NCBI RefSeq assembly: GCF_013401555.1
Contig: NZ_CP058552.1
Coordinates: 7,378,001-7,442,000 of the forward strand
Direction of reading: 5' to 3'
Source of the DNA: Paenibacillus sp. E222
Lineage (GTDB): Bacteria; Bacillota; Bacilli; Paenibacillales; Paenibacillaceae
Length of the DNA: 64,000 nt
This document shows positions 43,428-60,449 of the stretch, piece after piece. The notes beneath the pieces were generated by a model that was given only the letters and a program-made list of their open reading frames with translations, did no database searches and was not told the origin of the DNA. The stretch's first letter is position 1; every line of letters begins with the position of its first letter. Both the position numbers and the translations under genes were made by a program.

Positions 43428-46400
43428 ATTTCAATCCACGCACTCCATACAGAGTGCGACCTGGGAAACATCAGGTACATCCCCTGTTCTATTTGGTGTT
43501 TCAATCCACGCACTCCATACAGAATGCGACTAAACTCAGTGAAATATTCAATGACAATATTGATGTATTTCAATCCACGCACTCCATACAGAGTGCGACC
43601 TGGGAAACATCAGGTACATCCCCTGTTCTATTTGGTGTTTCAATCCACGCACTCCATACAGAATGCGACTAAACTCAGTGAAATATTCAATGACAATATT
43701 GATGTATTTCAATCCACGCACTCCATACAGAGTGCGACCCCTGGCCGGATTCACCTTTACACCAACAGCCCGATTTCAATCCACGCACTCCATACAGAGT
43801 GCGACTAGCGACCAAACAACTTAATGTATCAGCAAGAGGAATTTCAATCCACGCACTCCATACAGAGTGCGACGCGGGGCAGTCTGATCTCGAATCGTTT
43901 ACGGAAATTTCAATCCACGCACTCCATACAGAGTGCGACCGCATCAATGGCTCCCGTTTCCGCATGGTCGATCGATTTCAATCCACGCACTCCATACAGA
44001 GTGCGACGCGAAGAAGTTATATACAGTGGTTATAACATCGAGATTTCAATCCACGCACTCCATACAGAGTGCGACCAGACACAATCATTAGAGCGTCGGT
44101 GTGGCGTATTTCAATCCACGCACTCCATACAGAGTGCGACTCAGGAGTCCAGCAATTTCGGACATATCCTTGAGGATTTCAATCCACGCACTCCATACAG
44201 AGTGCGACTCGACCAACATACCGTTGTCATCGATCTTCCAACCATTTCAATCCACGCACTCCATACAGAGTGCGACATGCGGCCCGGGCAATAGACTTTA
44301 AGGCTATGAATATTTCAATCCACGCACTCCATACAGAGTGCGACCACCGACCGCTGCGACCTTGTTGAACACCCACCAATTTCAATCCACGCACTCCATA
44401 CAGAGTGCGACCCTGTTGAACCTGGCGCCATGGATGGACTCCCCAATTTCAATCCACGCACTCCATACAGAGTGCGACCCCATGACTCTGCCGACTGTCT
44501 CGCACCGGAGATAATTTCAATCCACGCACTCCATACAGAGTGCGACCACGATCACCAAATGTTGATGTAGCTGCATTAGCCGATTTCAATCCACGCACTC
44601 CATACAGAGTGCGACGTGATTGCAAAGGCTGGGTTAAGTTTGTTCTTAAGGATTTCAATCCACGCACTCCATACAGAGTGCGACATGAAACCTACACCCG
44701 GGCAGACGGTAAGCCTATATTTCAATCCACGCACTCCATACAGAGTGCGACATATGACTTTATAATACCATACGTTCACAGTATTAATTTCAATCCACGC
44801 ACTCCATACAGAGTGCGACGAACAGTATCTATAAGATGGCTCGGATGTTTAAAGATTTCAATCCACGCACTCCATACAGAGTGCGACCTGTAGTGTCTGT
44901 AATGGCACGCAGTATATTGATATTTCAATCCACGCACTCCATACAGAGTGCGACTTGCTACTCCGTTGTTCAATCTGTTGTTCGGTTTCATTTCAATCCA
45001 CGCACTCCATACAGAGTGCGACCGCCGCAATTTTTTGTGTAATTTTCTTCGCATATTATTTCAATCCACGCACTCCATACAGAGTGCGACATCCGCGTAC
45101 TGTTGAACAGATTGCGGCCGACAACATTTCAATCCACGCACTCCATACAGAGTGCGACTGAGGATCGGTTGATGGAGCACCTTACGAAAACGATTTCAAT
45201 CCACGCACTCCATACAGAGTGCGACGAGTTTCTTCAGTTCCTCGCAATATTTTACATAGATTTCAATCCACGCACTCCATACAGAGTGCGACTTGTGCCG
45301 ATTTCAAGGCTGCTTTATGTTCCCTAGATTTCAATCCACGCACTCCATACAGAGTGCGACTTTTCTCAGCAATTTCACATCCAAGCCAGCTGCCGATTTC
45401 AATCCACGCACTCCATACAGAGTGCGACGCTGTATATTCCGGAAAATGACGACTACATTTATCATATTTCAATCCACGCACTCCATACAGAGTGCGACGG
45501 AAGCGAGTTAGCTTATGTAGGTATTGCGTGTATTTCAATCCACGCACTCCATACAGAGTGCGACTCAGTACATTTTCAGTACTGGCTATTTGCTGGTTAC
45601 ATTTCAATCCACGCACTCCATACAGAGTGCGACCTGGACATCCGCTCTTATTTGCAATCACCAAAAGGTATTTCAATCCACGCACTCCATACAGAGTGCG
45701 ACGTAGCCGGGACGCCTGTTATACGCGGTACCTTTCGATTTCAATCCACGCACTCCATACAGAGTGCGACGACGGCCGTCCTGACGGGCATTGACGAGGA
45801 GTACATCATTTCAATCCACGCACTCCATACAGAGTGCGACTCCCGCCGCCTGAAACGGGCTTAAATGCCTCGCCTATTTCAATCCACGCACTCCATACAG
45901 AGTGCGACTTGGTCGGGTCGTTAAGGCAACCTAAATCAAAGGGATTTCAATCCACGCACTCCATACAGAGTGCGACGGTTCATTGGCAGTACTGGCGATT
46001 AACACAAATAAATTTCAATCCACGCACTCCATACAGAGTGCGACGGTAATGACCCTACACGTATCACCGAGTTCCTTATATTTCAATCCACGCACTCCAT
46101 ACAGAGTGCGACTCGCCAAGGGATCACATCCAACCAAGCGAGCATTAAATTTCAATCCACGCACTCCATACAGAGTGCGACTCATACAGTTCATCAGCGA
46201 TCTGTTTAAACTCAGGATTTCAATCCACGCACTCCATACAGAGTGCGACCTGCCACCTTATTAAATTTTTTTACCCAGAAATACATTTCAATCCACGCAC
46301 TCCATACAGAGTGCGACGCCATGAATGCTTCAAATTCGCTGTATTCTTCATCATTTCAATCCACGCACTCCATACAGAGTGCGACAAAATGTTCGAACCT

Positions 46401-47061
46401 AGCTCATGAGCAGTATGGATATTTCAATCCACGCACTCCATACAGAGTGCGACACCGTCAGGAACAATAGACTTCCGACCCACATCTGGATTTCAATCCA
46501 CGCACTCCATACAGAGTGCGACCGAATCTTTTCTTGAGTCAGCTTCTTCAGCTCAATTTCAATCCACGCACTCCATACAGAGTGCGACGTTGGTAGCACG
46601 ATTAACTCAATGGACTTTTCTATTTCAATCCACGCACTCCATACAGAGTGCGACACGTCTGCCAGATCGTAGTTCAAGTTAACTACTGATTTCAATCCAC
46701 GCACTCCATACAGAGTGCGACATGTTTTTCTATAGATTCTGCTATAATGCAGGGAATTTCAATCCACGCACTCCATACAGAGTGCGACTTAATTTGTGGT
46801 ACTAGACTCTTAGCAAATTGAAAATTTCAATCCACGCACTCCATACAGAGTGCGACTCAAGATCAAGCCAGGGCTTCCTTCTTGCTGGATGATTTCAATC
46901 CACGCACTCCATACAGAGTGCGACTTGGCTGCACCCTAATCGGTGGAATCATTGTAGGGTATTTCAATCCACGCACTCCATACAGAGTGCGACCAAGCGC
47001 GCGCGGATGCCATCACATCATACAAGGGATTTCAATCCACGCACTCCATACAGAGTGCGAC
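43428..47061 (-). CRISPR. Type I-C CRISPR array 1: 54 repeats, 53 spacers
   Basis: The repeat is 33 bp; in transcript sense it starts GTCGCACTCTGTATGG and ends GTGCGTGGATTGAAAT, the type I-C form with GCACTC/GAGTGC stem. Spacers are mostly 33-37 bp (mean period 68). By repeat polarity and the leader at the right end, transcription runs leftwards. Degeneration marks the distal (left) end: two repeats carry a G-to-A change in the stem and lack the last T, and a block of two repeat-spacer units is duplicated in tandem (43461-43738). The array directly follows cas2. Long open frames read across it (FNPRTPYRV, THSIQSAT) are translation of repeats, not genes. Confidence 0.98.
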
Positions 47062-47255
47062 AGCGAAAAAGTACGTAATAGCAATATTTCTCGAATAGAT
47101 ATTAACGTCTTTTCGTTATTTCAACTTAGTTAGAACCTTTACTCAATCGAATTTGCTTAAAATTCATTGCCAAAAGGTCACAAAAAGGACATTTTCGACA
47201 AATTCCGAGGTGCGAATCCCCCAGGAAAATCATGTGAGCTTGGCATTCGCACCTG
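47062..47255 (-). promoter_or_regulatory. Leader of CRISPR array 1
   Basis: An AT-rich 194-bp stretch between cas2 and the first repeat. It shares with leaders 2 and 3 the repeat-adjacent AGCGAAAAA-type start, a GCCAAAAGG block, TTTTCGACAA and an inverted pair GGTGCGAAT (47209-47217) / ATTCGCACC (47245-47253) with ATGTGAGC between the arms. It should contain the array promoter and the Cas1-Cas2 integration signals. Confidence 0.8.
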
Positions 47256-47546
47256 CTAAAGTATTAACGGATCACCCATATCATAGGAATCTTTGGCTCC
47301 CACATGTTGGACTTTACTTTTGTAATTATCGCCTAAGTTGTAGAATCGAAGACTATCTGTATCCTTATCAATCAATTCTTCCAGTTCGAATCTTAATCGT
47401 CTAAACTGGGCAGCGTCCAGTATACATTCAAATACTGAGTTCTGCACTCGCTGACCGTGATCCACACACTTTTTAGCCACTTTAGATAGCCTTCTTCGAC
47501 CTTCACTATCTATTGTGCTCACATCATACGTAATTAAAATAAGCAA
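47256..47546 (-). CDS. cas2: CRISPR-associated endoribonuclease/integration protein Cas2
   Basis: A 96-residue ferredoxin-fold Cas2 of type I-C: beta-1 LILITYDVS with the metal-binding Asp, GRRRLSKVAKKCVDHGQRVQNSVFEC and the SLRFYNLG beta strand. It bridges two Cas1 dimers in the spacer-acquisition complex. The frame starts at TTG; an ATG three bases upstream is out of frame. It is the last cas gene, nine bases after cas1, and abuts the leader of array 1. Confidence 0.95.
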   Translation of the reverse strand: MLILITYDVSTIDSEGRRRLSKVAKKCVDHGQRVQNSVFECILDAAQFRRLRFELEELIDKDTDSLRFYNLGDNYKSKVQHVGAKDSYDMGDPLIL

Positions 47547-47555
47547 TCATCACAC

Positions 47556-48587
47556 CTACTTCCACAGAAACGGAGGATATTCATCCAGATCCCCACGTAT
47601 ATATCTTGCCAGTAGTAACGCTTGAGTGTATGGTACAAGACCCCAAGGTATTTTTTCATTCAAATACGGATGCATAATCTTGTCCTGTTTACGATCTTGC
47701 CACGCTTTTAACACTTTCTTTCGTGTTTCATCATCCATAATGACTGCAAGATTTTCTTTTACATAAAAGCCTTTATCGTTAATCACTTTTTTATTAATAA
47801 GAGAGAGCACAAAACGGTCTGCGTACACTCCCCGAAGTTCCTCCATCATATCCAGTGCAAGAGAAGCTCTGCCAGGACGATCCCGGTGCAAAAAACCAAC
47901 ATATGCATCAAGTCCGACAGATTCAAGTGCAGACTTCATATCATTAGCGAGCAAGGTATAGGCAAAGGATAATAATGCATTCACTTTATCTAAGGGAGGA
48001 CGGCGACTGCGTCCGTAAAAGTAAAATGACTCCTTTTGCTGTAGGATCAGATCATCGAAAACGGAGTTATATTGAACAGCGGCAGAGCCTTCCAAACCAC
48101 GCAATATGTCCAATTGTTCTACATCGCGTAACAGCTTCATCGTTTCTCCTAGCGACTCCGTGACCTTCTTGATTCGTTCTGTGTCGATACGTAGTGCATA
48201 ATCTCGTGTGGCACGTTCCAGAATCCACTTGTTGTTGTATAACTTCCCTGTAATCATATTACGAGCAACCCGCGCACTGCGCACCTCATCGTCCGAGATA
48301 CGGTACTGCTCCTTCCGCAATACAACATTTCCTCGATCCTCACCAATGACCCGTGCGAGGAATCGCCCTGTTCGTGTCATAAACGTCAAACTAACATTCC
48401 GAGACGCACAAGCCCCCATCAGTGCTGGACTTACTCCAGCATAGCCAAAGGTGCATACGGCCTCCAGATTATGTAGGGGATAGCGAGCAAGAATTTCCTC
48501 CTCCTGCTTCACCACAATGTTTTCTCCATCCAGTGCCAGGTATGTATCAGGCAATGTTACAAATAAGGTGTTCAGCAGCTTTTTCAT
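47556..48587 (-). CDS. cas1: Type I-C CRISPR-associated integrase Cas1
   Basis: A 343-residue Cas1 with an N-terminal beta domain (NTLFVTLPDTYLALDGENI) and a C-terminal helical catalytic domain. The metal ligands can be placed in LRGLEGSAAVQYNSVF (Glu), YVGFLHRDRPGRASLALD (His) and LDMMEELR (Asp/Glu). The KKLLNTLFVT start and length are those of Cas1c. With Cas2 it integrates new spacers at the leader-repeat junction. The start overlaps cas4 by four bases. Confidence 0.96.
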   Translation of the reverse strand: MKKLLNTLFVTLPDTYLALDGENIVVKQEEEILARYPLHNLEAVCTFGYAGVSPALMGACASRNVSLTFMTRTGRFLARVIGEDRGNVVLRKEQYRISDDEVRSARVARNMITGKLYNNKWILERATRDYALRIDTERIKKVTESLGETMKLLRDVEQLDILRGLEGSAAVQYNSVFDDLILQQKESFYFYGRSRRPPLDKVNALLSFAYTLLANDMKSALESVGLDAYVGFLHRDRPGRASLALDMMEELRGVYADRFVLSLINKKVINDKGFYVKENLAVIMDDETRKKVLKAWQDRKQDKIMHPYLNEKIPWGLVPYTQALLLARYIRGDLDEYPPFLWK

Positions 48588-49243
48588 TCATTCAACCTGC
48601 TTTCGATGTAACTTGAAACAGAGCGTTTGTTCAAGATATCAGGCACACATATGTTGTTCAAAGAACAACTTAGGCAGTGTGGTCCTGCTTTGGCTTTGGG
48701 GGTGTGGTTCCGTTCAAAGTAATGTCTCATCTCTTCAATACTTGCCCTCACACGTTCCCGGTCTGCCGTAGTAATAACTACTTCTACCCGATGCTTAATC
48801 TCGTCATAATAAAAATAGGCCTTGTTAATATCACATACGAGCATCTCTTCCAGACACATGACTTGTGCTACCAATTGGGCGTGATCGGAATCATTTCGTT
48901 TGGGTTTGCCACGTTTATATTCAACAGGAAAAGGAAGGTATAACCCTTCCTCCCCTGCAAGCGGAACTCCAGCCGGATCACGAATGAATTCAACTACGTC
49001 ACAGATACCTGTGATGCCAAGTTCTCTCGATTGTACCGGAAGTGCACGAACCACCAATTTATCTCCTCGTTTTTCACGAAGCGCTGGTTGATCTGCCTTT
49101 CGATGCAAATGATCTCCCTCAATGGTACGCACATTATCTTCCCACTGTTGTTCAATATGAATTAATGCCCACTGCCTTCTACAAAAGTTAAAATGCTGAA
49201 TACCCGAAAGCAGCAGATAATCCTCTTCGTTATAGTCCTTCAT
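48584..49243 (-). CDS. cas4: CRISPR-associated exonuclease Cas4
   Basis: A 219-residue RecB-like nuclease: iron-sulfur cysteines in FNFCRRQW at the N-terminus and CLSCSLNNIC at the C-terminus, with the catalytic DVVEF and PVEYKRGKP (Asp, Glu-x-Lys) motifs between. Cas4 trims prespacers and helps select PAM-bearing ones, acting with Cas1 in type I-C. It overlaps cas7 by 14 bp and cas1 by four. Confidence 0.95.
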   Translation of the reverse strand: MKDYNEEDYLLLSGIQHFNFCRRQWALIHIEQQWEDNVRTIEGDHLHRKADQPALREKRGDKLVVRALPVQSRELGITGICDVVEFIRDPAGVPLAGEEGLYLPFPVEYKRGKPKRNDSDHAQLVAQVMCLEEMLVCDINKAYFYYDEIKHRVEVVITTADRERVRASIEEMRHYFERNHTPKAKAGPHCLSCSLNNICVPDILNKRSVSSYIESRLNE

Positions 49244-50105
49244 ATTCTTGGACTTCTAATCCATCGAGCTGCTGAATATCATAGGTATAACGTGCATAAG
49301 TGTTTTTCTCAGCCTCGGTGACTTCCAGATTCTCTTCTATGACCAATGAACGATGTACCTTTGCAGAAGAGTATTGTCCCAGCTTAGATTTGTGCTCCCA
49401 CCAGTACAGCTTGTGTACCTCCATGCTTCCGTCAGGACGAGCAGAGGATGTATCGTTGGCGAACAATGTGCGAAGCGCCTCCCTCAACTTTTCCGCATCC
49501 TCATATGTAAATCCAGTCTTCTCTGCAAGTTGTGTGTTGATGCTGCCATAGATCACGTATACGCCAAATTCGACACGGTGTTTCATACCCATGGTGTCCG
49601 AGCCACGTTTGTCTGGATCTTTGGGAGAGGTAACAGAGTTGACGCTTTTCGTAATTTGCATGCTGCTAATATCGATCCGATCCTGACTTACCGCAGTATG
49701 AATAGATACCGGACCACGAATACCTACCGACACATCTGTTCCGCTAAAAGCAAAAACCTGCCCGAAGCTGCGTACATCTATCCAAGACTGGCATGCCGCA
49801 TCTGCATATAATTCCTTATTGGCTTTTTTACCCTTAGCGTGTTCCTGTACGGCTTCATTAGCATCGACTCGATCCTTGATCGAACGGTGCCCATCATCCC
49901 GACGATCATCGGATTGCACCAGTATTGACTCGCCCATATCTTGTAGACGGTTGCGCAGCTTGCGCTTGATGCAAACGTCGGAAATCTCTCCGTAACCATC
50001 ATAATTCTGACGTGGACGGTTCCCGTTCAGCGGGTCACCATTCGGATTGGCATTGCGGACAGAGACTACGACAGCAAAATCAATTTTACGATCCAATACG
50101 CTCAT
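49230..50105 (-). CDS. cas7: Type I-C Cascade backbone protein Cas7 (Csd2)
   Basis: A 291-residue RAMP protein of the Csd2 type, recognised by VSVRNANPNGDPLNGNRPR at the N-terminus, SFGQVFAF and the QITKSVNS segment. Several copies coat the crRNA spacer in Cascade. The ATG follows the cas8c stop without any spacer, so translation is coupled. Confidence 0.96.
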   Translation of the reverse strand: MSVLDRKIDFAVVVSVRNANPNGDPLNGNRPRQNYDGYGEISDVCIKRKLRNRLQDMGESILVQSDDRRDDGHRSIKDRVDANEAVQEHAKGKKANKELYADAACQSWIDVRSFGQVFAFSGTDVSVGIRGPVSIHTAVSQDRIDISSMQITKSVNSVTSPKDPDKRGSDTMGMKHRVEFGVYVIYGSINTQLAEKTGFTYEDAEKLREALRTLFANDTSSARPDGSMEVHKLYWWEHKSKLGQYSSAKVHRSLVIEENLEVTEAEKNTYARYTYDIQQLDGLEVQEYEGL

Positions 50106-50522
50106 TCAATTTTCCTCCTGTGTATCGTTATCTTCACCTTGTTGTGTGTCTGATGTACCCGTCGCTTCCTTGGCTTTTTTACTGGTGTACAGATCGTTAC
50201 GCTGGCTGTAAAAGCCAAGCAAATACAACCCAGTTAGCGGTTTGTCTGTGTAATCTTCCAGGTTGAGCATCGCACCTACCTCATCTAGCAAACTGTTGTA
50301 GTATCTTGCATCCGTACCCATTTTAGCTTGATAAGGTTGTAAGTTCGACTGAATAATACTCCAGGTACGTCCTGGACGTTGGGCAAAAGCATTCATGTAA
50401 CGAATCGCATTGCTGGCCCGTTTCTCTTCTCGTCCCAGCGCTCTTCGTTCCAGCACATCGGCAATCGCCAGCATCCGTCCAAACAAATAACTGCGATCCG
50501 TCGTTTCCGTGTTCAAACCCAC
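50106..50522 (-). CDS. cas11: Internal ORF for the small subunit Cas11c within cas8c
   Basis: Inside cas8c, an in-frame GTG (codon 534) stands eight bases after AAGGAGG, an ideal ribosome site in the middle of a coding region. Translation from there gives 138 residues covering the helical C-terminal domain ([51 protein letters not shown]). Type I-C systems are known to make Cas11 from an internal start in cas8c, and length and position agree. Two to four copies would form the inner belly of Cascade. Confidence 0.7.
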   Translation of the reverse strand: MGLNTETTDRSYLFGRMLAIADVLERRALGREEKRASNAIRYMNAFAQRPGRTWSIIQSNLQPYQAKMGTDARYYNSLLDEVGAMLNLEDYTDKPLTGLYLLGFYSQRNDLYTSKKAKEATGTSDTQQGEDNDTQEEN

Positions 50523-52121
50523 ATCGAAGCCCTCCTTCTCATTCTCCTTATTCACCAAGGCACAAGCGATGCTCAGCGTCTTCTCCCATTCCCATGTTTC
50601 CATCCCAACCGGGTTTGATGCACGCTGTACAGCACTTCGCACGATATCACGAGGCAACTCACGTCCTACTTCTATAATACATGGCAGGATTCGCTCCATC
50701 AGACCTTTGACCAGTTTGTCGCTCGCTCTAGGTCCGTATGCCGCAAACGCAATATCTCTTGTCGCAGGTGCCCCGGTAAAGGTCGTCCAGTGGTTGTCCT
50801 TGTCCTTCCGGTACCGATGTTGCCAGTAACAACTCGTATGCCACTTTTCCAATCGATCGAGGTAATCCTCATGATTCAAATCCTGATAGTACGTGATCGA
50901 CATTCGACCTGGCGTCGCCGCGTCCAGCACCATAATCGTGATATGGGCGTAATGCTCACCATCATAACGGTATCCGTCAATGGCTTTCTTAATCTCTCGC
51001 GCAAAAGCTTTGGACGTTGTATCGCCTGCCGGTGCAGGATTTCCAGAGTTGGACGAATTATCTCCGTAGGCATCCACATCGAAATCCTCTTCAAACTCGC
51101 GATCTTCGTCATAATCCTCCAACTCTTGGGCAGCTTCCCTCAATTCCAATGCATCCTGATGAGGTTCCGGCAAGTCCAGCCGCTGGTTTCCCCATACGAC
51201 AAACACTTTACCGTCAATCGTAATGCCTTGCCTGTCAATCAGCCATTTAAGCGCATTATGTCCCTTTTGTGATGCCATGTAACTGACGGATGCAGCCTCA
51301 CGACTGGTTCGAAACCTTCCACGATACGTAAATCCTACCGAGTCATTCGCCGAAATCAGCTTAGATTTGTCGCCAGAATGCCGAATTCGGGAGGTATGTT
51401 TATCGGCAACAGGCAATATTTCTCCCGTCACATAACAGATATCCATGTCCACAAGACTACTCTCATAAAACTGAACAAATAACTGTTGTACCTCTATATC
51501 TCGCCACAGTCTCGCCTCTGGGTCACCCGGAATGTTGACAGCGAACCGCACAAACGCGCTGCTCTGATCAGATGCCAGCACATTGAAGATCGGCGGTTTT
51601 TCACTCGCTTCCTGACTTGGGGCCGGAGCCCACTTATCCCGCAGCTTCCCCTGTTCATCAACATGCAGGATACCTTCGGCAACGAGATCAGCAATCAAAG
51701 TTCCTTTGCGGACATATTCATACACGCTCTGCACTTTTTCATGGGAGTAGGACGAATCGCACCAAGCCTTCAATTGAGCCAGATAATCCTCGTAAGGCGT
51801 GCCTTTCACATCACCGCAGAACTGAACAAAATCCCCAGCCACATACAACAACTTGTCAAAAAGCGGATATGGCACCGGAGCGCTTGTCCTGCTGGCCGCA
51901 GCTTCGGTACACGGAATGATCGTGCTGCCCTCTACCTTGTCTCGAACGTAGGCGGTGGAGAAGTTTCCTTTCCCATCCAAATGCACTTCGATATGTGCAG
52001 TCTGCGTTGTATGAGAGACTGGGATCAGGGCGTATTCGCGCCCATTCTTTTTTGTTTCGAATCGTCCTACTGACAATATGTTGTTATTGTAGGTTTGCGT
52101 CAGATTCGCCAGCCAGCTCAT
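50106..52121 (-). CDS. cas8c: Type I-C Cascade large subunit Cas8c (Csd1)
   Basis: A 671-residue Cas8c/Csd1. N-terminal [16 protein letters not shown] and the central VGFTYRGRF and FVVWGNQ segments are characteristic of Csd1; the C-terminus is the Cas11-like helical domain. Cas8c recognises the PAM and recruits Cas3 in the I-C Cascade. It is somewhat longer than many homologues because of an Asp/Glu-rich linker (about 335-370, [20 protein letters not shown]) and an acidic tail. The start overlaps cas5c by four bases. Confidence 0.95.
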
Positions 52122-52840
52122 ACCGTATCACGCCCCTCAAACCATTCGTCATGCAACTCATCCACAGATTTCATGTTATCTGTGTGGAATGCTTTGGATG
52201 TGCCTTCCCCTATACTACGCACCAACGTGCACTCCTCGGGACGATCGAAACGAATAATGCCGTTATACATCTTGGCCCGCCACAATCGCACTTCCCGCTC
52301 ATTGCGCCCTGTCTCATCCGGGTAGTTCATACCATGCACCATCGTTCCAAAATCAATCTCTGGCACCTTGTCGTACGCGCCTTCTCCTTCGCCGAATAGA
52401 CAAGGCTCCACATATGCCTGACATTCGCGAGTTCCGAGAAAAATATCTCTGCGTCCACCGACGTTCACCGCTCGCTTGGCGATATTATGGTGTTTGTGCT
52501 CATTTCGGTCGTAGGCCAAGTCTTCCCGATGGGGATTGAACCTGAAATGAGCTTTGACCTGATAACATACGTCTTTCAAATATGTATAATAGGCCAGCGT
52601 ATTTCCACCATTGTATTCGATAGGGCGCATCCCTTTGGACTCGGTCTGGATTGGCTTCACGATTCGAACCTCATCCACGAACCAGATAATGGTTGGTTTC
52701 CAGTAGATGGATTCTACGATCCCTTTCAGCGCTTGATATGTCGGTACCTGATAGCTAAATTTCTCGCCTCCCAGCTTCGTCATCGGATCGGTAAACAACG
52801 CATAGTTGCCATATACTTTGAATTCAATCTGGTTCCGCAT
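52118..52840 (-). CDS. cas5c: Type I-C crRNA-processing protein Cas5c (Csd5)
   Basis: A 240-residue RAMP protein with the Cas5 N-terminus ([15 protein letters not shown]), the Gly-rich turn [17 protein letters not shown], and HRANR-like basic segments. In type I-C, which lacks Cas6, Cas5c cuts the pre-crRNA and caps the 5' handle in Cascade. AAGGAGGATTATGCA precedes the ATG. A 95-bp gap with a hairpin separates it from the small gene upstream. Confidence 0.95.
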
Positions 52841-53197: not shown

Positions 53198-53234
53198 TTC
53201 GTGTGTTTTAAAAGATTGAATGTAAAATTTATCT
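53198..53234 (+). promoter_or_regulatory. PAM plus partial protospacer for the crRNA-like guide
   Basis: TTC (53198-53200), the usual type I-C PAM, is followed by GTGTGTTTTAA, which equals guide positions 1-11 except position 6. Beyond position 11 the match is lost. Type I guides flip out every sixth base, so this is a complete seed match followed by mismatches. The site lies in the upstream region of the small ORF and cas5c, where bound Cascade would block initiation or elongation without strong cleavage. The exact promoter boxes for the leftward transcript were not identified with confidence. Confidence 0.65.
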
Positions 53235-53288
53235 GTCCATATATTTATGTTACACTCTAAGCGGTTACTACTAATTCAGACTCTAATT

Positions 53289-53362
53289 GTCGCTACTAAG
53301 CGCGGATTGAAAAGTGTGGTTTAATGATTGGAGACTCGCCTTTGGCGAGTTTTCTCTCTTTA
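53289..53362 (+). ncRNA. CreA/CreR-like crRNA-like RNA (single degenerate repeat + guide + terminator)
   Basis: GTCGC (53289-53293), a six-base loop, then GCGCGGATTGAAAA (53300-53313) reproduces the two ends of the type I-C repeat while the internal stem-loop is shortened. A guide begins at 53314 with GTGTGGTTTAATGATTGG. It runs into an intrinsic terminator (ACTCGCC/GGCGAGT, 53334-53350, then TTTCTCTCTTT). A possible extended -10 (TGTTACACT, 53248-53256) lies upstream. The unit is on the plus strand, opposite to the cas genes and convergent with cas3. The guide's seed matches the PAM-flanked site at 53198. Known CreA and CreR RNAs have this design: repeat-like handle, partial target match, target in a cas or toxin promoter. 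Confidence 0.7.
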
Positions 53363-53376
53363 ACGAGTCATACGTT

Positions 53377-55836
53377 CTATAAAACCAGGCTCTCCCACTC
53401 TCCATTGCCCTCCAGATGCATACCGAACTTTTTCGAGTATGCCGTATCCCTTAATGCAAAGGCTTGTCCGTTTAGCAATGAAATAATCTCATCATTTTGG
53501 CTAAGTATCTTCATTTCATGCTCGTACACATTCACGGTATATTGCTGTGCTTGGCGCAATAGATCGCTAAGCTCACCCGGGCCTAATTGACCGTTCAGGT
53601 CTGTAATTAGTTCGCGGCCTATCTCATCATAAGGAACGATAACTGGTGTTGCTTTCAACGTGATGACTTCAAAATACTTCTCAACTGTTGCAATAGCAGA
53701 CTTGTTAACTAGTTCAGGTAAATGACCATGTTTCTGTTTATATCCGTCGATGTTGTATGAATTACGGTTCATCAGATCGAACAGATTTTGCTCCAATTTC
53801 GGCACTGGATAATGCACTTTCTCCCCAATGCCATGATAGTAATACTTGAAGTAACAAGTCATCGCCTCTGCCGATAACAAACTACCGCCCAACGCTTCTG
53901 GGTCATCTGCGAATTCTCTCAATACCCGTTCCGTCATCTCTGCACCAAGCTTAATTTCTCGCAAATGCTTCAAATTTTCATCAGCCGACCGAATAATATA
54001 TACATCCCGCAGTGGCACTTCCCGGTGGCGGTTGCACCTCCCCGCTGCCTGCGCTATGGAGTCCAGTCCGGCGAGCGAGCGTATCACACACTGAAAGCTG
54101 ATATCCACCCCCGCCTCAATGAGTTGTGTACTGACGCAAATAACGCGATCTCCATCTTCCAGTCCGGTAATAAGCCCAGCGAGCATTTCTTTCCGATGAG
54201 CCGCACACATGTTGGTACTCAGATGCACAAGTCGAATGTTCTCCGTCTCCACCCATTCGGATTCATTCAACTCGCGATACAATTTACGCACAGCCGACTT
54301 TGTGTTCAATATGACCAGCACGCTGTCCACTTTGTTCATCTGTTCTTGTACAAAAGCAGCCAGCTCCTCTGCCACCCACCCCGCAGGGGCTTGAGAAGTC
54401 AAATCATGAATGTCCACCCGCCTGAAGGCATCGCCCACATGGCGTAGATCACTTACGATCTCCGCATCATTTGACAGTCGTAGCTTCTGTGGCACCTCAT
54501 GTAACGCAGGCTGGGTAGCCGTGCATAGCAGCAGACTGGACTTACCGAAAATACGCAGAAAATTGAGTGCTTCGTTAAAGAGGGAAATACAATACACAGG
54601 CACTGACTGTACTTCGTCAAAGACTATGACTGCGTTGGATAGCTGATGTAATCTGCGCACATTGCGAGTTCCCTTGGCATAAAACGTATTCAAAAACTGT
54701 ACCATCGTTGTGAAAATAATCGGGCGATCCCAATGATCCCGCGCCAGCTTCAATTGTTTGCGTTTCATATCATAACGTTCGCCATCTTCATCGTCTTGTC
54801 GTTCATCATCCTGGTTATCTACCACATTGGAATGGTGTTCCAGAATCATACCTTCCTCATCATCTTCCCCCAGCAAAATACGGCGGATCTCCGCAGCATT
54901 TTGTTCGATTATGGTGGTATACGGTACAACGTAAATAATGCGTTGCTTGCCGTGTTCCAGCGCGTGTCTTAGCGCATAACGCATACTCGCAAGCGTCTTG
55001 CCTCCACCTGTGGGAATAGACAAGGAGTAAATGCCCGACTCACGAAATGCAAACTGTTCGCATTGATTGGACATCTCCTGACGCAACGCCTGAATCGGAT
55101 TAGTTGAGTCTGCATTCAAGCTTATCTTATGAAGATGGTTCATAAGTGCATCGTAACTCTTTTGAAAAAAAGGCTTGTAATCTGGCACCTCAGCCGGAGG
55201 CTCGTCCTCTTCAAACTCACGGGTGTTACTTCGGTCAGCATCGATCAGACAACTAAATATGTATTTCGTCATGAGTGACGCCGTAATCAGCGGCAATCCA
55301 TGATGTTTAGCTTTACGATAAAAATTCTTCCATTCTTCGACGGCTTGAGCAAATAAATGGTCAAGCTCTTCCGTTGTTACATGCTGATGAAATTGTTGCT
55401 TAGCTTGCTCATAATGAGGCAGAGCATTATCCTGGACACGTTTCAGATAAGGAGATTCCCGATCCGGTGATACATAATCCCGCAATCCCTGATGGTGTGA
55501 GATGATGCAATTCGCCAGCCATTCTGCTGTCATCCGGCTTGGTACCTTCTGGTCAGGTCCACCATACCGTTGATGCAACAGCCTTCCCCCTGCTGTAGAA
55601 TGATCCACCGATCCCCTACGAGGGGCCTGATCCGATTGGGCAACGGCAAGCTGGATATAGTTTTTGAATTCATCGGTGAACTTGCCCATATCATGTAGTA
55701 ATCCTGCCAACGCTGCCAGATGTTCCACGTCCATTTTGGCCCCCGCTCGTCCACTGCCTCTGCTTACCTCCAGCAAATGCTCGATCACCGTCTGAATTGC
55801 CCAGTCCTTGACTCGTATATGCGCAATGTAGGTCAC
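53377..55836 (-). CDS. cas3: CRISPR-associated helicase-nuclease Cas3
   Basis: About 819 residues. An N-terminal HD nuclease domain (HEALAGLLHDMGK-type motif LAGLLHDMGKF near residue 45) is followed by a superfamily 2 helicase: Walker A IPTGGGKT, motif II VFDEVQSV, motif III LLCTATQPAL, and motif VI QAAGRCNRHREV. Cas3 unwinds and degrades DNA marked by Cascade. The frame is open to an ATG at 55851, but GAGGGGG six bases before a GTG at 55836 makes the GTG the likely start. It is the first cas gene; a 237-bp gap holding the crRNA-like RNA separates it from the small ORF. Confidence 0.95.
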   Translation of the reverse strand: MTYIAHIRVKDWAIQTVIEHLLEVSRGSGRAGAKMDVEHLAALAGLLHDMGKFTDEFKNYIQLAVAQSDQAPRRGSVDHSTAGGRLLHQRYGGPDQKVPSRMTAEWLANCIISHHQGLRDYVSPDRESPYLKRVQDNALPHYEQAKQQFHQHVTTEELDHLFAQAVEEWKNFYRKAKHHGLPLITASLMTKYIFSCLIDADRSNTREFEEDEPPAEVPDYKPFFQKSYDALMNHLHKISLNADSTNPIQALRQEMSNQCEQFAFRESGIYSLSIPTGGGKTLASMRYALRHALEHGKQRIIYVVPYTTIIEQNAAEIRRILLGEDDEEGMILEHHSNVVDNQDDERQDDEDGERYDMKRKQLKLARDHWDRPIIFTTMVQFLNTFYAKGTRNVRRLHQLSNAVIVFDEVQSVPVYCISLFNEALNFLRIFGKSSLLLCTATQPALHEVPQKLRLSNDAEIVSDLRHVGDAFRRVDIHDLTSQAPAGWVAEELAAFVQEQMNKVDSVLVILNTKSAVRKLYRELNESEWVETENIRLVHLSTNMCAAHRKEMLAGLITGLEDGDRVICVSTQLIEAGVDISFQCVIRSLAGLDSIAQAAGRCNRHREVPLRDVYIIRSADENLKHLREIKLGAEMTERVLREFADDPEALGGSLLSAEAMTCYFKYYYHGIGEKVHYPVPKLEQNLFDLMNRNSYNIDGYKQKHGHLPELVNKSAIATVEKYFEVITLKATPVIVPYDEIGRELITDLNGQLGPGELSDLLRQAQQYTVNVYEHEMKILSQNDEIISLLNGQAFALRDTAYSKKFGMHLEGNGEWESLVL

Positions 55837-56188
55837 AAGTGTCCCCCTCATTTGATTTGAAACAACACAATCTTACTTCGGTATTCAGGAGATTCGACTT
55901 GTATCTTACATTTCGACAAGAAGATTCGGTTTCCTTTACATGAAATTGTAAAATTTTGTAGCAGGTTAGGTGAAAACAAAAAAACTGGTTTCCAAAATGA
56001 TTGAAGGCATCTAAGATTCTATAACCGGGCAGTTAGGAACACCCGTAGGAAAAGGATATACTCCGCAATTCCAGGGACAATTTCGAGAAAAAGCCTCCCG
56101 TGTCGGATTATATACCTTGCTTAAATCTCTCAATTTAAACAGAGTGCTAAACAAACATGCCGTAGCTTTTATGTGTGATCCTTGATTT
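55837..56188. other. Intergenic region upstream of cas3, with an ORF remnant
   Basis: It holds the cas3 upstream region. A plus-strand stretch (56015-56185) is open for 56 codons and ends at TGA just before array 2, but has no start codon or recognised similarity, so it is at best a gene remnant. No second crRNA-like unit or seed match was seen here. Confidence 0.3.
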
Positions 56189-57216
56189 ATTTCAATCTAC
56201 GCTCTCATATAGAGTGCGACAAAAGTTTTTTCGACCCGGTCCTTCTTCAAAGAATTTCAATCCACGCACTCATATAGAGTGCGACTATCATACCGTCCAT
56301 GCACAAGCATTACACGATGATTTCAATCCACGCACTCATATAGAGTGCGACGAGGCATTGCTGCAGCGTTATTATGAGCGTGTCAATTTCAATCCACGCA
56401 CTCATATAGAGTGCGACGTGGAATACGGGGATGTAACTCGCCTCTCAGGAAAATTTCAATCCACGCACTCATATAGAGTGCGACTTCAACACTCAGCACA
56501 TTGTCAGCCGCACCTAAAGATTTCAATCCACGCACTCATATAGAGTGCGACGTTAATGCGGTTGCTGTTGCGGGCGAAGAGTACCTATTTCAATCCACGC
56601 ACTCATATAGAGTGCGACCCTTGTTGCCGAAAACATCGGCCAACTCTGTGATATTTCAATCCACGCACTCATATAGAGTGCGACAGCTGTATACACGTAA
56701 GGACGAACTGTCCAAAGAATTTCAATCCACGCACTCATATAGAGTGCGACGCAGCTAACGTGCAGGCGAGTCCGACAACTACACAATTTCAATCCACGCA
56801 CTCATATAGAGTGCGACTGGAGCCGATGGACGTCATCAAGCGCCGTATCGAGATTTCAATCCACGCACTCATATAGAGTGCGACATAAATTTGATCGCGC
56901 GTTTGCCTATACCAGTGAATTTCAATCCACGCACTCATATAGAGTGCGACCGTACGCTATGACAGCATGGAGGGCTCCAAAAGTGATTTCAATCCACGCA
57001 CTCATATAGAGTGCGACTCTGAACGGTTAGGTACTGCATGGTTGATCCGGTTATTTCAATCCACGCACTCATATAGAGTGCGACTGGGCAAATTGTGCTT
57101 TTGCCTGCATTTTTAATTTATTTCAATCCACGCACTCATATAGAGTGCGACAAGCAGCGTCTGAATACCATCGGCAATCACCTTATTTCAATCCACGCAC
57201 TCATATAGAGTGCGAC
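56189..57216 (-). CRISPR. Type I-C CRISPR array 2: 16 repeats, 15 spacers
   Basis: The repeat is 32 bp; in transcript sense GTCGCACTCTATATGAG ... GTGCGTGGATTGAAAT, a one-base-shorter loop than in array 1. The leftmost repeat (56189-56220) has two changes and is the distal end. The leader is on the right, so transcription is leftwards, towards cas3. Spacers average 34 bp. Confidence 0.97.
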
Positions 57217-57420
57217 AGCAGAAAATAACGTATATTCGTTTAAAAAAAGATGTTTTTTACGTTATTCTATCGTTTAGTAAAGATGATAAATTCATCTTAA
57301 TACAAATAATCCATTTAATTCAAGAATGATGTTGCCAAAAGGGGACAATAATGCTTAATCGACAATTTTCGAGGTGCGAATCTCCTAGAGATTTTATGTG
57401 AGCTTAACATTCGCACCAGT
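57217..57420 (-). promoter_or_regulatory. Leader of CRISPR array 2
   Basis: AT-rich leader starting AGCAGAAAATAACG at the repeat. It shares GCCAAAAGG, TCGACAATTTTCGAGGTGCG and the inverted pair GGTGCGAAT (57373-57381) / ATTCGCACC (57409-57417) with the other two leaders. Confidence 0.75.
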
Positions 57421-58996: not shown

Positions 58997-60449
58997 CTCC
59001 TGATCTTCGCACTCCATAAGGAGTGCGACCGGAATACGAGACTCGAACTCGTATCAGTAGCTTGATTTCAATCCACGTACTCCATACGGAGTACGACTGC
59101 ATCGTCACCTATAACGTCCAGCGTGATAAACATTTCAATCCACGCATTCCATACGGAGTGCGACCACATTTATCCTCTCAAGCGTCTTTTAATATAATCA
59201 TTTCAATCCACGCACTCCATACGGAGTGCGACCTAATTATTCAATCGACGGGGGCAAGGACGTAGTTATTTCAATCCACACACTCCATACAGAGTGCGAC
59301 CAACATAGGTAAATATGCTCTAGGATGTGTTGAGGATTCCAATCCACGCACTCCATACGGAGTGCGACATTCCGGAATGATGGTCGATCCACCCATGCGT
59401 AAGATTTCAATCCACGCACTCCATACGGAGTGCGACTCGGGGCATTTTTGTTTATGATGCTTCTGTTTAGAATTTCAATCCACGCACTCCATACGGAGTG
59501 CGACCACAAACGTTGGAGCTTAAACGTGAATATTTACTTATTTCAATCCACGCACTCCATACGGAGTGCGACATGAGCAATTTGACTATTTCACGATGGA
59601 TCTGGAATTTCAATCCACGCACTCCATACGGAGTGCGACTTCGGTTTTGGGTGGGCAGCGATAAGAGTAATCGATTTCAATCCACACACTCCATACGGAG
59701 TGCGACTGGAATTCATGTCCGATTATGCAGCACCATTTTCGATTTCAATCCACACACTCCATACGGAGTGCGACATTCCGCTACGTTCGCATAGCTCTTT
59801 GACTTGTAGATTTCAATCCACACACTCCATACGGAGTGCGACCAAAATTATTTTTTCGTTGTGCGCTTCCACTATATTTCAATCCACACACTCCATACGG
59901 AGTGCGACTTTGTTTTCTTGTTTTTTTGTCATTAACAACAACCGATTTCAATCCACACACTCCATACGGAGTGCGACTTAAAGGGAGATTAAACACCTTG
60001 CTAGCAAGATTGATTTCAATCCACACACTCCATACGGAGTGCGACGCCGTCGGCAAACACCAACTTGATCTCCTTAAGATTTCAATCCACACACTCCATA
60101 CGGAGTGCGACTGTGACACATCCAATGTACCACCACCAAGAGCTTTATTTCAATCCACACACTCCATACGGAGTGCGACGCCCATTACAGTCGTTGCTTT
60201 TGTTTCGCGAGACAATTTCAATCCACACACTCCATACGGAGTGCGACCTCATTACGAAACTGACCACCACACTCAGTATTAAATTTCAATCCACACACTC
60301 CATACGGAGTGCGACCGCTGGCCTATCTCTCAATTCTGGCTGGACTTTCTATTTCAATCCACACACTCCATACGGAGTGCGACGCTCAATTTCATCTTTC
60401 ATTTCCGTCATACTCAATTTCAATCCACACACTCCATACGGAGTGCGAC
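58997..60449 (-). CRISPR. Type I-C CRISPR array 3: 22 repeats, 21 spacers, two repeat variants
   Basis: The repeat is 33 bp; in transcript sense GTCGCACTCCGTATGGAGTG then (C or T)GTGGATTGAAAT. Twelve consecutive leader-proximal repeats plus the fifth from the left end have T at that position, while the other distal repeats have C. The leftmost repeats are degenerate; the first keeps only its 24-bp stem part. Leader on the right, transcription leftwards. Confidence 0.97.

Follow-up and report, generated by a model that had tools for sequence, protein, structure and literature searches.

A candidate CreR-type RNA gene and its co-conserved target between cas3 and cas5c in type I-C CRISPR-Cas loci of Paenibacillus and other Bacilli

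CreR RNAs, which have been described for CRISPR-Cas types I-B, I-E and V-A, are among the closest known counterparts of the element reported here: according to the available portions of PMC13131331 and PMC12737573, they are likewise crRNA-like RNAs from a cas locus that are complementary in part to the promoter region of the cas genes and have a predicted role in autorepression, and the term I-C is absent from the text of PMC12737573. The present element differs from CreR in that it belongs to type I-C, carries a single repeat, has its 3′ end predicted at a terminator and is inferred from conservation. The original CreR paper reportedly describes a two-repeat mini-CRISPR form. A literature search of titles and abstract openings, which took in few subscription journals, returned no I-C CreR case; the survey of Shmakov et al. 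2023 may contain I-C elements, as this pipeline survey reportedly covers standalone repeats of type I and type V-A systems with spacers that show partial complementarity to cas promoters.

Haloarchaeal CreA represses with a seed of exactly positions 1-5 and 7-11, and CreA of the Haloarcula hispanica I-B CreTA module has in common with our element one pseudo-repeat, a guide, a T-rich terminator and this same seed, TTC being the PAM of the H. hispanica I-B system too (accessible text of PMC8501985). That CreA differs in its archaeal I-B setting, its use of Cas6, its 8-nt handle and its toxin promoter target. The Acinetobacter I-F CreTA resembles our element in its location in the cas3-effector gap, its short 20-nt guide and an unpaired position 6; its target lies downstream of the promoter, and a strain without CreTA is also without the gap (excerpts of PMC10097628). 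Unlike our element, it has two pseudo-repeats, a toxin RNA target gene and a CC PAM. Phage Racr units also consist of a single repeat behind a promoter, and one of them acts on type I-C, whereas Racr inhibits by serving as a decoy and no target is described for it in the available part of PMC10651486. As for type I-C itself, ranked second in abundance among the subtypes by one review, the PAM of Bacillus halodurans is NTTC (sections of PMC6546366), and Cas5d cuts the I-C repeat at the base of the hairpin to leave an 11-nt 5′ handle, with B. halodurans spacers of 33-36 nt (sections of PMC3890593). The predicted handle and PAM of the element described below fit both the 11-nt Cas5d handle and NTTC.

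The window, by which we mean the whole 64-kb stretch of Paenibacillus sp. E222 DNA that was analysed, contains a type I-C locus that reads leftward on the minus strand in the order cas3, a 67-aa ORF and cas5c-8c-7-4-1-2, with the cas genes assigned by Pfam (Table 1). The host system is complete for cas3, cas5c (Cas5d), cas8c (Csd1), cas7, cas4, cas1 and cas2 and is thus a member of type I-C. The gap between cas3 and cas5c measures 536 nt. Three CRISPR arrays surround the locus (43428-47061, 56189-57216 and 59132-60449); their repeats differ slightly, their copies number 52, 16 and 19, respectively, as counted with one strict pattern, and their sense orientation is that of the minus strand.

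Table 1. Coordinates of the cas genes and of the predicted crRNA-like element and its target in the window.
Feature	Position	Strand	Remarks
cas3	53377-55851	-	Pfam Cas3 domains; upstream of the crRNA-like element
Predicted intrinsic terminator	53330-53358	+	stem 53330-53354, then T-rich tail
Guide	53314-53329	+	16 nt, up to the terminator stem; matches the target at positions 1-5 and 7-11
Degenerate type I-C repeat (pseudo-repeat)	53289-53313	+	4-bp stem CGCT/AGCG, loop ACTA, then 11-nt 5′ handle CGGATTGAAAA (53303-53313)
Candidate promoter of the crRNA-like gene (predicted)	53228-53256	+	TTTATC, 17 nt, extended -10 TG-T-TACACT (TACACT 53251-53256); scan score 8.1 on its own scale
Alternative promoter candidate (predicted)	53216-53245	+	TTGAAT-18-TATATT
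TTC + seed-matched target GTGTGTTTTAA	53198-53211	+	sequence match; NTTC is the PAM published for B. halodurans I-C
Small ORF, 67 aa	52936-53139	-	Shine-Dalgarno-like GGGAGGTGA; first gene behind the target
cas5c (Cas5d), crRNA-processing subunit	52118-52840	-	PF09704, 5.9e-43
cas8c (Csd1)	50106-52121	-	PF09709
cas7c	49230-50105	-	PF05107
cas4	48584-49243	-	PF01930
cas1	47556-48587	-	PF01867
cas2	47256-47546	-	PF09827

The plus strand of the gap reads GTCGC-TACTA-AGCG-CGGATTGAAAA at 53289-53313. Compared with GTCGCACTCTGTATGGAGTGCGTGGATTGAAAT, the most frequent repeat of the local arrays (one pattern finds 52 copies), it retains both ends, and its stem has shrunk to 4 pairs from the 7 read from the array repeat, so that the degenerate repeat with a shrunken stem reported by the first-pass annotation was borne out when the sequence was checked. 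The guide begins at 53314 with GTGTGGTTTAATG, and the predicted terminator stem begins at guide position 17. The terminator that the same annotation had placed behind the guide was also recovered, as a hairpin at 53330-53354; by itself this hairpin is unremarkable because the scan expects 0.6 such sites in shuffles. The pseudo-repeat stem appears when the repeat is folded alone or with its 5′ leader (two of three folds); it is absent from the lowest-energy fold of 53289-53358, and on its own its stability is not above that of shuffles (z -0.54). Promoter-like sites in the region number two where 2.2 are expected in shuffles. Between the predicted -10 and the pseudo-repeat lies a direct repeat, ACTCTAA, at 53254-53260 and 53280-53286, with a spacing of 26 nt; the similar leader of locus L004 has no such duplication, which suggests a 26-nt insertion or slippage in the window leader, and the inserted stretch is able to pair with the handle in one predicted fold. 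An Rfam search with the element produced only an irrelevant weak miRNA match. The plus strand has the handle sequence GGATTGAAA at 53304 as an isolated copy, so the element is not a canonical CRISPR array with at least two repeats and full-length spacers; judged by its sequence, it is a putative crRNA-like RNA gene with a repeat-derived handle inside a cas locus, as expected of a CreR.

The putative target consists of TTC at 53198-53200 followed by GTGTGTTTTAA at 53201-53211, where position 6 is the sole mismatch within guide positions 1-11 and guide positions 12-15 are unmatched. Coordinates and letters thus agree with the earlier description of a TTC-flanked match to guide positions 1-11 save position 6, ending at 11, and the accompanying judgement that chance would hardly produce an exact register at handle and PAM alike was upheld by the controls. 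The TTC-flanked match occurs once in the window and twice in the 7.5-Mb genome, in which the reversed pattern occurs once. Among 20,000 dinucleotide shuffles of the 536-nt gap, a single one yielded an exact TTC-flanked match and 35 reached at least 9/10, and of 71 array spacers extracted with a single repeat pattern, none attained 9/10 at a TTC-flanked site in the gap. We conclude that the element and its match are real and not products of chance. As in CreR, the PAM-flanked partial match stands ahead of the cas effector operon, here with the 67-aa ORF intervening. Promoter scans found no clear leftward promoter near the window target (best 8/12). The second genomic TTC-GTGTGTTTTAA site (L139 1501-1514, genome position 1912746) is intergenic, ~78 nt upstream of a 305-aa ORF; guide positions 12-16 are all unmatched there, and the site is probably a chance occurrence rather than a second target.

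For comparison with relatives we assembled 106 usable cas5c loci from a genome-contig search with Cas5c, of which the best 80 of 550 relatives were taken, and a genus search of 75 genomes, which added 28 places including the window itself; L054 (no upstream DNA) and L109 (distant Cas5) were left out of the counts. An element was scored where an isolated handle with at most one change from GGATTGAAA lay within the cas3-cas5c gap on the strand opposite to cas5c. By this rule 45 of the 106 loci carry an element, and merging identical pseudo-repeats ahead of the target counts left 41 distinct elements, the window counted. Occurrence follows gap width: an element is present in 43/47 loci whose gap measures ≥200 nt, in 1/3 with 150-199 nt and in 1/56 with less than 150 nt, counts that hold some species twice, as loci without an element were not de-duplicated. 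Element and target together are carried by, among others, members of Paenibacillus, Neobacillus, Bacillus, Caldibacillus, Aeribacillus, Brevibacillus, Mesobacillus, Oceanobacillus, Schinkia, Fictibacillus, Sporosarcina, Metabacillus, Evansella and Saccharibacillus. No element was found within 900 nt upstream of cas3 in the loci scanned there (L002-L081 without L050 and L054).

The first-pass annotation had named co-variation of seed and target in relatives as a check, and in these loci handle, seed and target do not drift independently: 36 of the 41 distinct elements have, in the same gap, a TTC followed by a site identical to the guide at positions 1-5 and 7-11. Shifting the guide by -5 to -1 or +1 to +5 leaves 0/41 matches at every shift; replacing TTC gives 5/41 for the next-best trinucleotide, ATA, and a mean of 0.19 over the other 63; and freeing a position other than 6 reduces the count to 6-7/41, six loci matching without any free position. 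Over all 35 regions, shuffles (300 each) lead to an expectation of 0.003 matches, compared with 32/35 observed. Because the targets were picked on positions 1-5 and 7-11, agreement in the seed is partly by construction; positions 12-16 were unused in picking, and the high agreement at 13-16 together with the dip at 12 is therefore independent evidence. Among the 36 target-bearing loci, position 6 matches in 6 and position 12 in 10, while positions 13-16 match in 35, 33, 34 and 29, followed by 13 (position 17), 11 and 9; beyond position 17 agreement between guide and target is at background level. This pattern is that of type I pairing with each sixth base unpaired. The window is the only one of the 36 without a match at position 13.

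The pairs are also diverse, with 21 distinct seeds among the 36 target-bearing loci. Guides placed on other loci's regions match in 122 of 1,190 pairs, and guides compared with other loci's targets in 106 of 1,260, since a single AT-rich seed is common to ten loci and a few other loci also have seeds in common. On the Cas5c tree, at least 49 parsimony changes fall at guide seed positions and the target is equal in every locus (by selection of the targets), whereas positions 6 and 12 change in guide and target without agreement. Five of the 41 elements, those of L019, L023, L038, L048 and L081, have no strict target, and L023 and L081 are also without the GTC end.

The anatomy of the element is likewise shared. 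All 38 elements with a GTC end have a stem of 3-9 bp (G-U allowed) directly before the handle, and compensated stem pairs occur in four of the elements, as CAC/GTG in L058 and L072 and as CGT/ACG in L048 and L104. In 26/38 elements an extended -10 that ends 6-8 nt ahead of GTC ranks first or second among the scored promoters (a count with no shuffled control), which places the predicted start of the RNA at the repeat; in the window, the predicted -10 ends 33 nt ahead of the repeat. A hairpin lies behind the guide in 35 of the 36 target-bearing loci, and its stem starts at guide position 16-20 in 28/36 (again with no shuffled control), coinciding with the end of complementarity. With respect to the operon, guide and cas5c messenger share their sense in 26/36 loci, and for 20 of these 26 the start of the best-scoring cas5c-side -35 falls within protospacer positions 15-29 (no shuffled control). 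The remaining 10/36 loci, the window among them, have a guide antisense to the downstream messenger, and the targets of L009, L013 and L018 are set against the ribosome site.

With the rule fixed beforehand, 33 further loci from a class sample served as a held-out set. Where the gap was at least 200 nt, an isolated handle was present in 15/15 and a target in 12/15; L166, with a gap of 192 nt, has both; below 150 nt, 0/16 have a handle or a target; and L171, with no cas3 in reach, has no handle. For three of the 13 held-out targets (L144, L151 and L153), an identical element had already occurred among the earlier loci, and 3 of the 16 wide-gap loci (L141, L142 and L161) have a handle and no target. 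For the 18 isolated handles of this set, the true register gave 13 matches and six shifts gave 0, TTC gave 13 and the next trinucleotide, ATT, 3, and freeing position 6 gave 13 and any other position 0. In a sample of the phylum (Bacillota), matches were found in 107/398 genomes, many of them weak; in 24 of the best 29 other phylum loci cas3 and cas5c are <100 nt apart, and only L110 has element and target, its element being identical to that of L026 and its genome lying outside the class of the window. The phylum and held-out results together indicate that the element occurs mainly in Bacilli whose cas5c is set apart from cas3. L129, from a distant family of the class, has a gap of 762 nt and a handle-like repeat without a target. 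Handles are intact and strict targets lacking in L038, L048, L141, L142 and L161, and these elements may be broken, re-aimed or using another PAM; the gap of L048 holds a large foreign ORF of 641 aa, by eye a transposase.

Taking sequence and conservation together, the best reading, to which we assign a probability of roughly 0.86, is that a CreR-type RNA allows the I-C Cascade to repress its own operon. The plus strand at ~53251-53358 would be transcribed into this crRNA-like RNA, which Cas5d would cut at the base of the stem to leave the 11-nt handle, and the RNA would then load into Cascade and direct the complex to the TTC-flanked partial match at 53198-53211. Cascade bound at this site would repress the leftward operon of small ORF-cas5c-8c-7-4-1-2, with the short complementarity (11 nt here, ~16 in relatives) blocking RNA polymerase without licensing Cas3. 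The predicted outcome is negative feedback on the level of Cascade, which would be lifted, as in published CreR, when ordinary crRNAs compete for Cascade or an anti-CRISPR disables it. Because its match ends at position 11, its -10 is distant, its stem is lost in the lowest-energy fold and its promoters are not clear, the window copy may be weaker than those of relatives.

Autorepression was one of two outcomes proposed by the first-pass annotation, the other being a guarded toxin. On the latter reading, Cascade and the RNA would silence the 67-aa ORF (or an RNA overlapping it) in the manner of a CreTA- or CrePA-like addiction module, and loss of Cascade would free the toxin. The target does stand ahead of the small ORF, and the Acinetobacter I-F CreTA occupies the equivalent gap with its 20-nt guide and unpaired position 6 (excerpts of PMC10097628). 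However, the whole gap is ≤330 nt in 22/36 target-bearing loci, where the target is directly before cas5c, and for this reason autoregulation is preferred; apart from the start of cas5c, 9 of these 22 loci have some start codon accompanied by a ribosome-site-like stretch, in 5 of the 9 only within 8 nt of the cas5c start, and none is common between loci. Larger gaps hold unrelated ORFs, three of them transposase-like helix-turn-helix ORFs above the Pfam cut-off, and the 67-aa ORF has two close relatives in a search limited to close relatives. The toxin half of the earlier proposal thus found no support, and we regard an addiction module as unlikely.

The other rival explanations dispense with either the guiding role or the RNA gene itself and are less probable still. 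An ordinary antisense RNA acting on the messenger leader, with no part for Cascade, would suit the 10/36 loci whose guide is antisense to the messenger, including the three in which the ribosome site is faced, but in the other 26 guide and messenger agree in sense, and antisense pairing gives no reason to expect a strict TTC, the 11-nt handle register or free positions 6 and 12; we consider it very improbable. Much the same weight falls to a decoy that ties up Cas5d or Cas7 without guiding: the single repeat behind a promoter recalls the solitary repeat units of Racr, one of which acts on I-C (available part of PMC10651486), yet the target is conserved although a decoy requires none, the element sits inside the cas locus itself and not, as a Racr would, on a mobile element to act without a target, and none of three pattern searches of viral contigs, each with a single guide form, turned up a copy of it. 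A decayed array remnant, composed of a repeat and an ordinary spacer that matches the gap by chance, might be suggested by the repeat-like sequence, its weak stem and the three arrays nearby; the shuffle and spacer counts for the window (1/20,000 and 0/71) speak against it, as does the recurrence of element, TTC and register across relatives, and the 41-element and held-out results contradict it, leaving a negligible chance.

We infer that the 67-aa ORF is cargo and not a toxin. Its two relatives share 97% and 85% identity with it; it matches no Pfam family at the curated cut-off, it gives no alignment with the small ORF of L004, and its predicted fold (mean pLDDT 46.6) is of no use. The same slot is taken in L015, L025 and L031 by a small stand-alone transposase-like helix-turn-helix ORF above the Pfam cut-off, and helix-turn-helix ORFs in the gap could possibly be co-opted regulators. 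The slot of L044 holds a small helix-turn-helix-like ORF with a weak Pfam match, and the ORF of L020 is similar to that of L015.

If the autorepression reading is true, RNA-guided self-repression extends to type I-C, and there would be an explanation for the gap of ≥200 nt that separates cas3 from the Cascade operon in many of the bacteria concerned; anti-CRISPRs or a flood of crRNA would then be predicted to raise I-C cas expression. The co-varying pairs of guide and target provide a test bed, in which natural sequences, with no need of a structure, indicate that I-C positions 6 and 12 are free and ~16 are under selection. I-C editing and silencing tools could also gain a short guide of natural origin and an inherent off switch. 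We also put forward a broader and tentative proposal, which we hold to be possible though rather less likely than its converse: the I-C systems of Bacilli and near relatives may have a built-in short-guide Cascade that binds and silences and never licenses Cas3, with the intrinsic terminator of a single-repeat RNA, placed after ~16 guide bases, fixing both guide length and complementarity, and evolution may have recorded the skipped sixth base in vivo.

Two minor features of the arrays were noted. In the first array, a 139-nt stretch comprising two repeat-spacer units is duplicated exactly in tandem (43428-43566 and 43567-43705). Beside the first and second arrays, 47195-47253 and 57359-57417 have a common 59-nt stretch (81%), which is probably part of their leaders.
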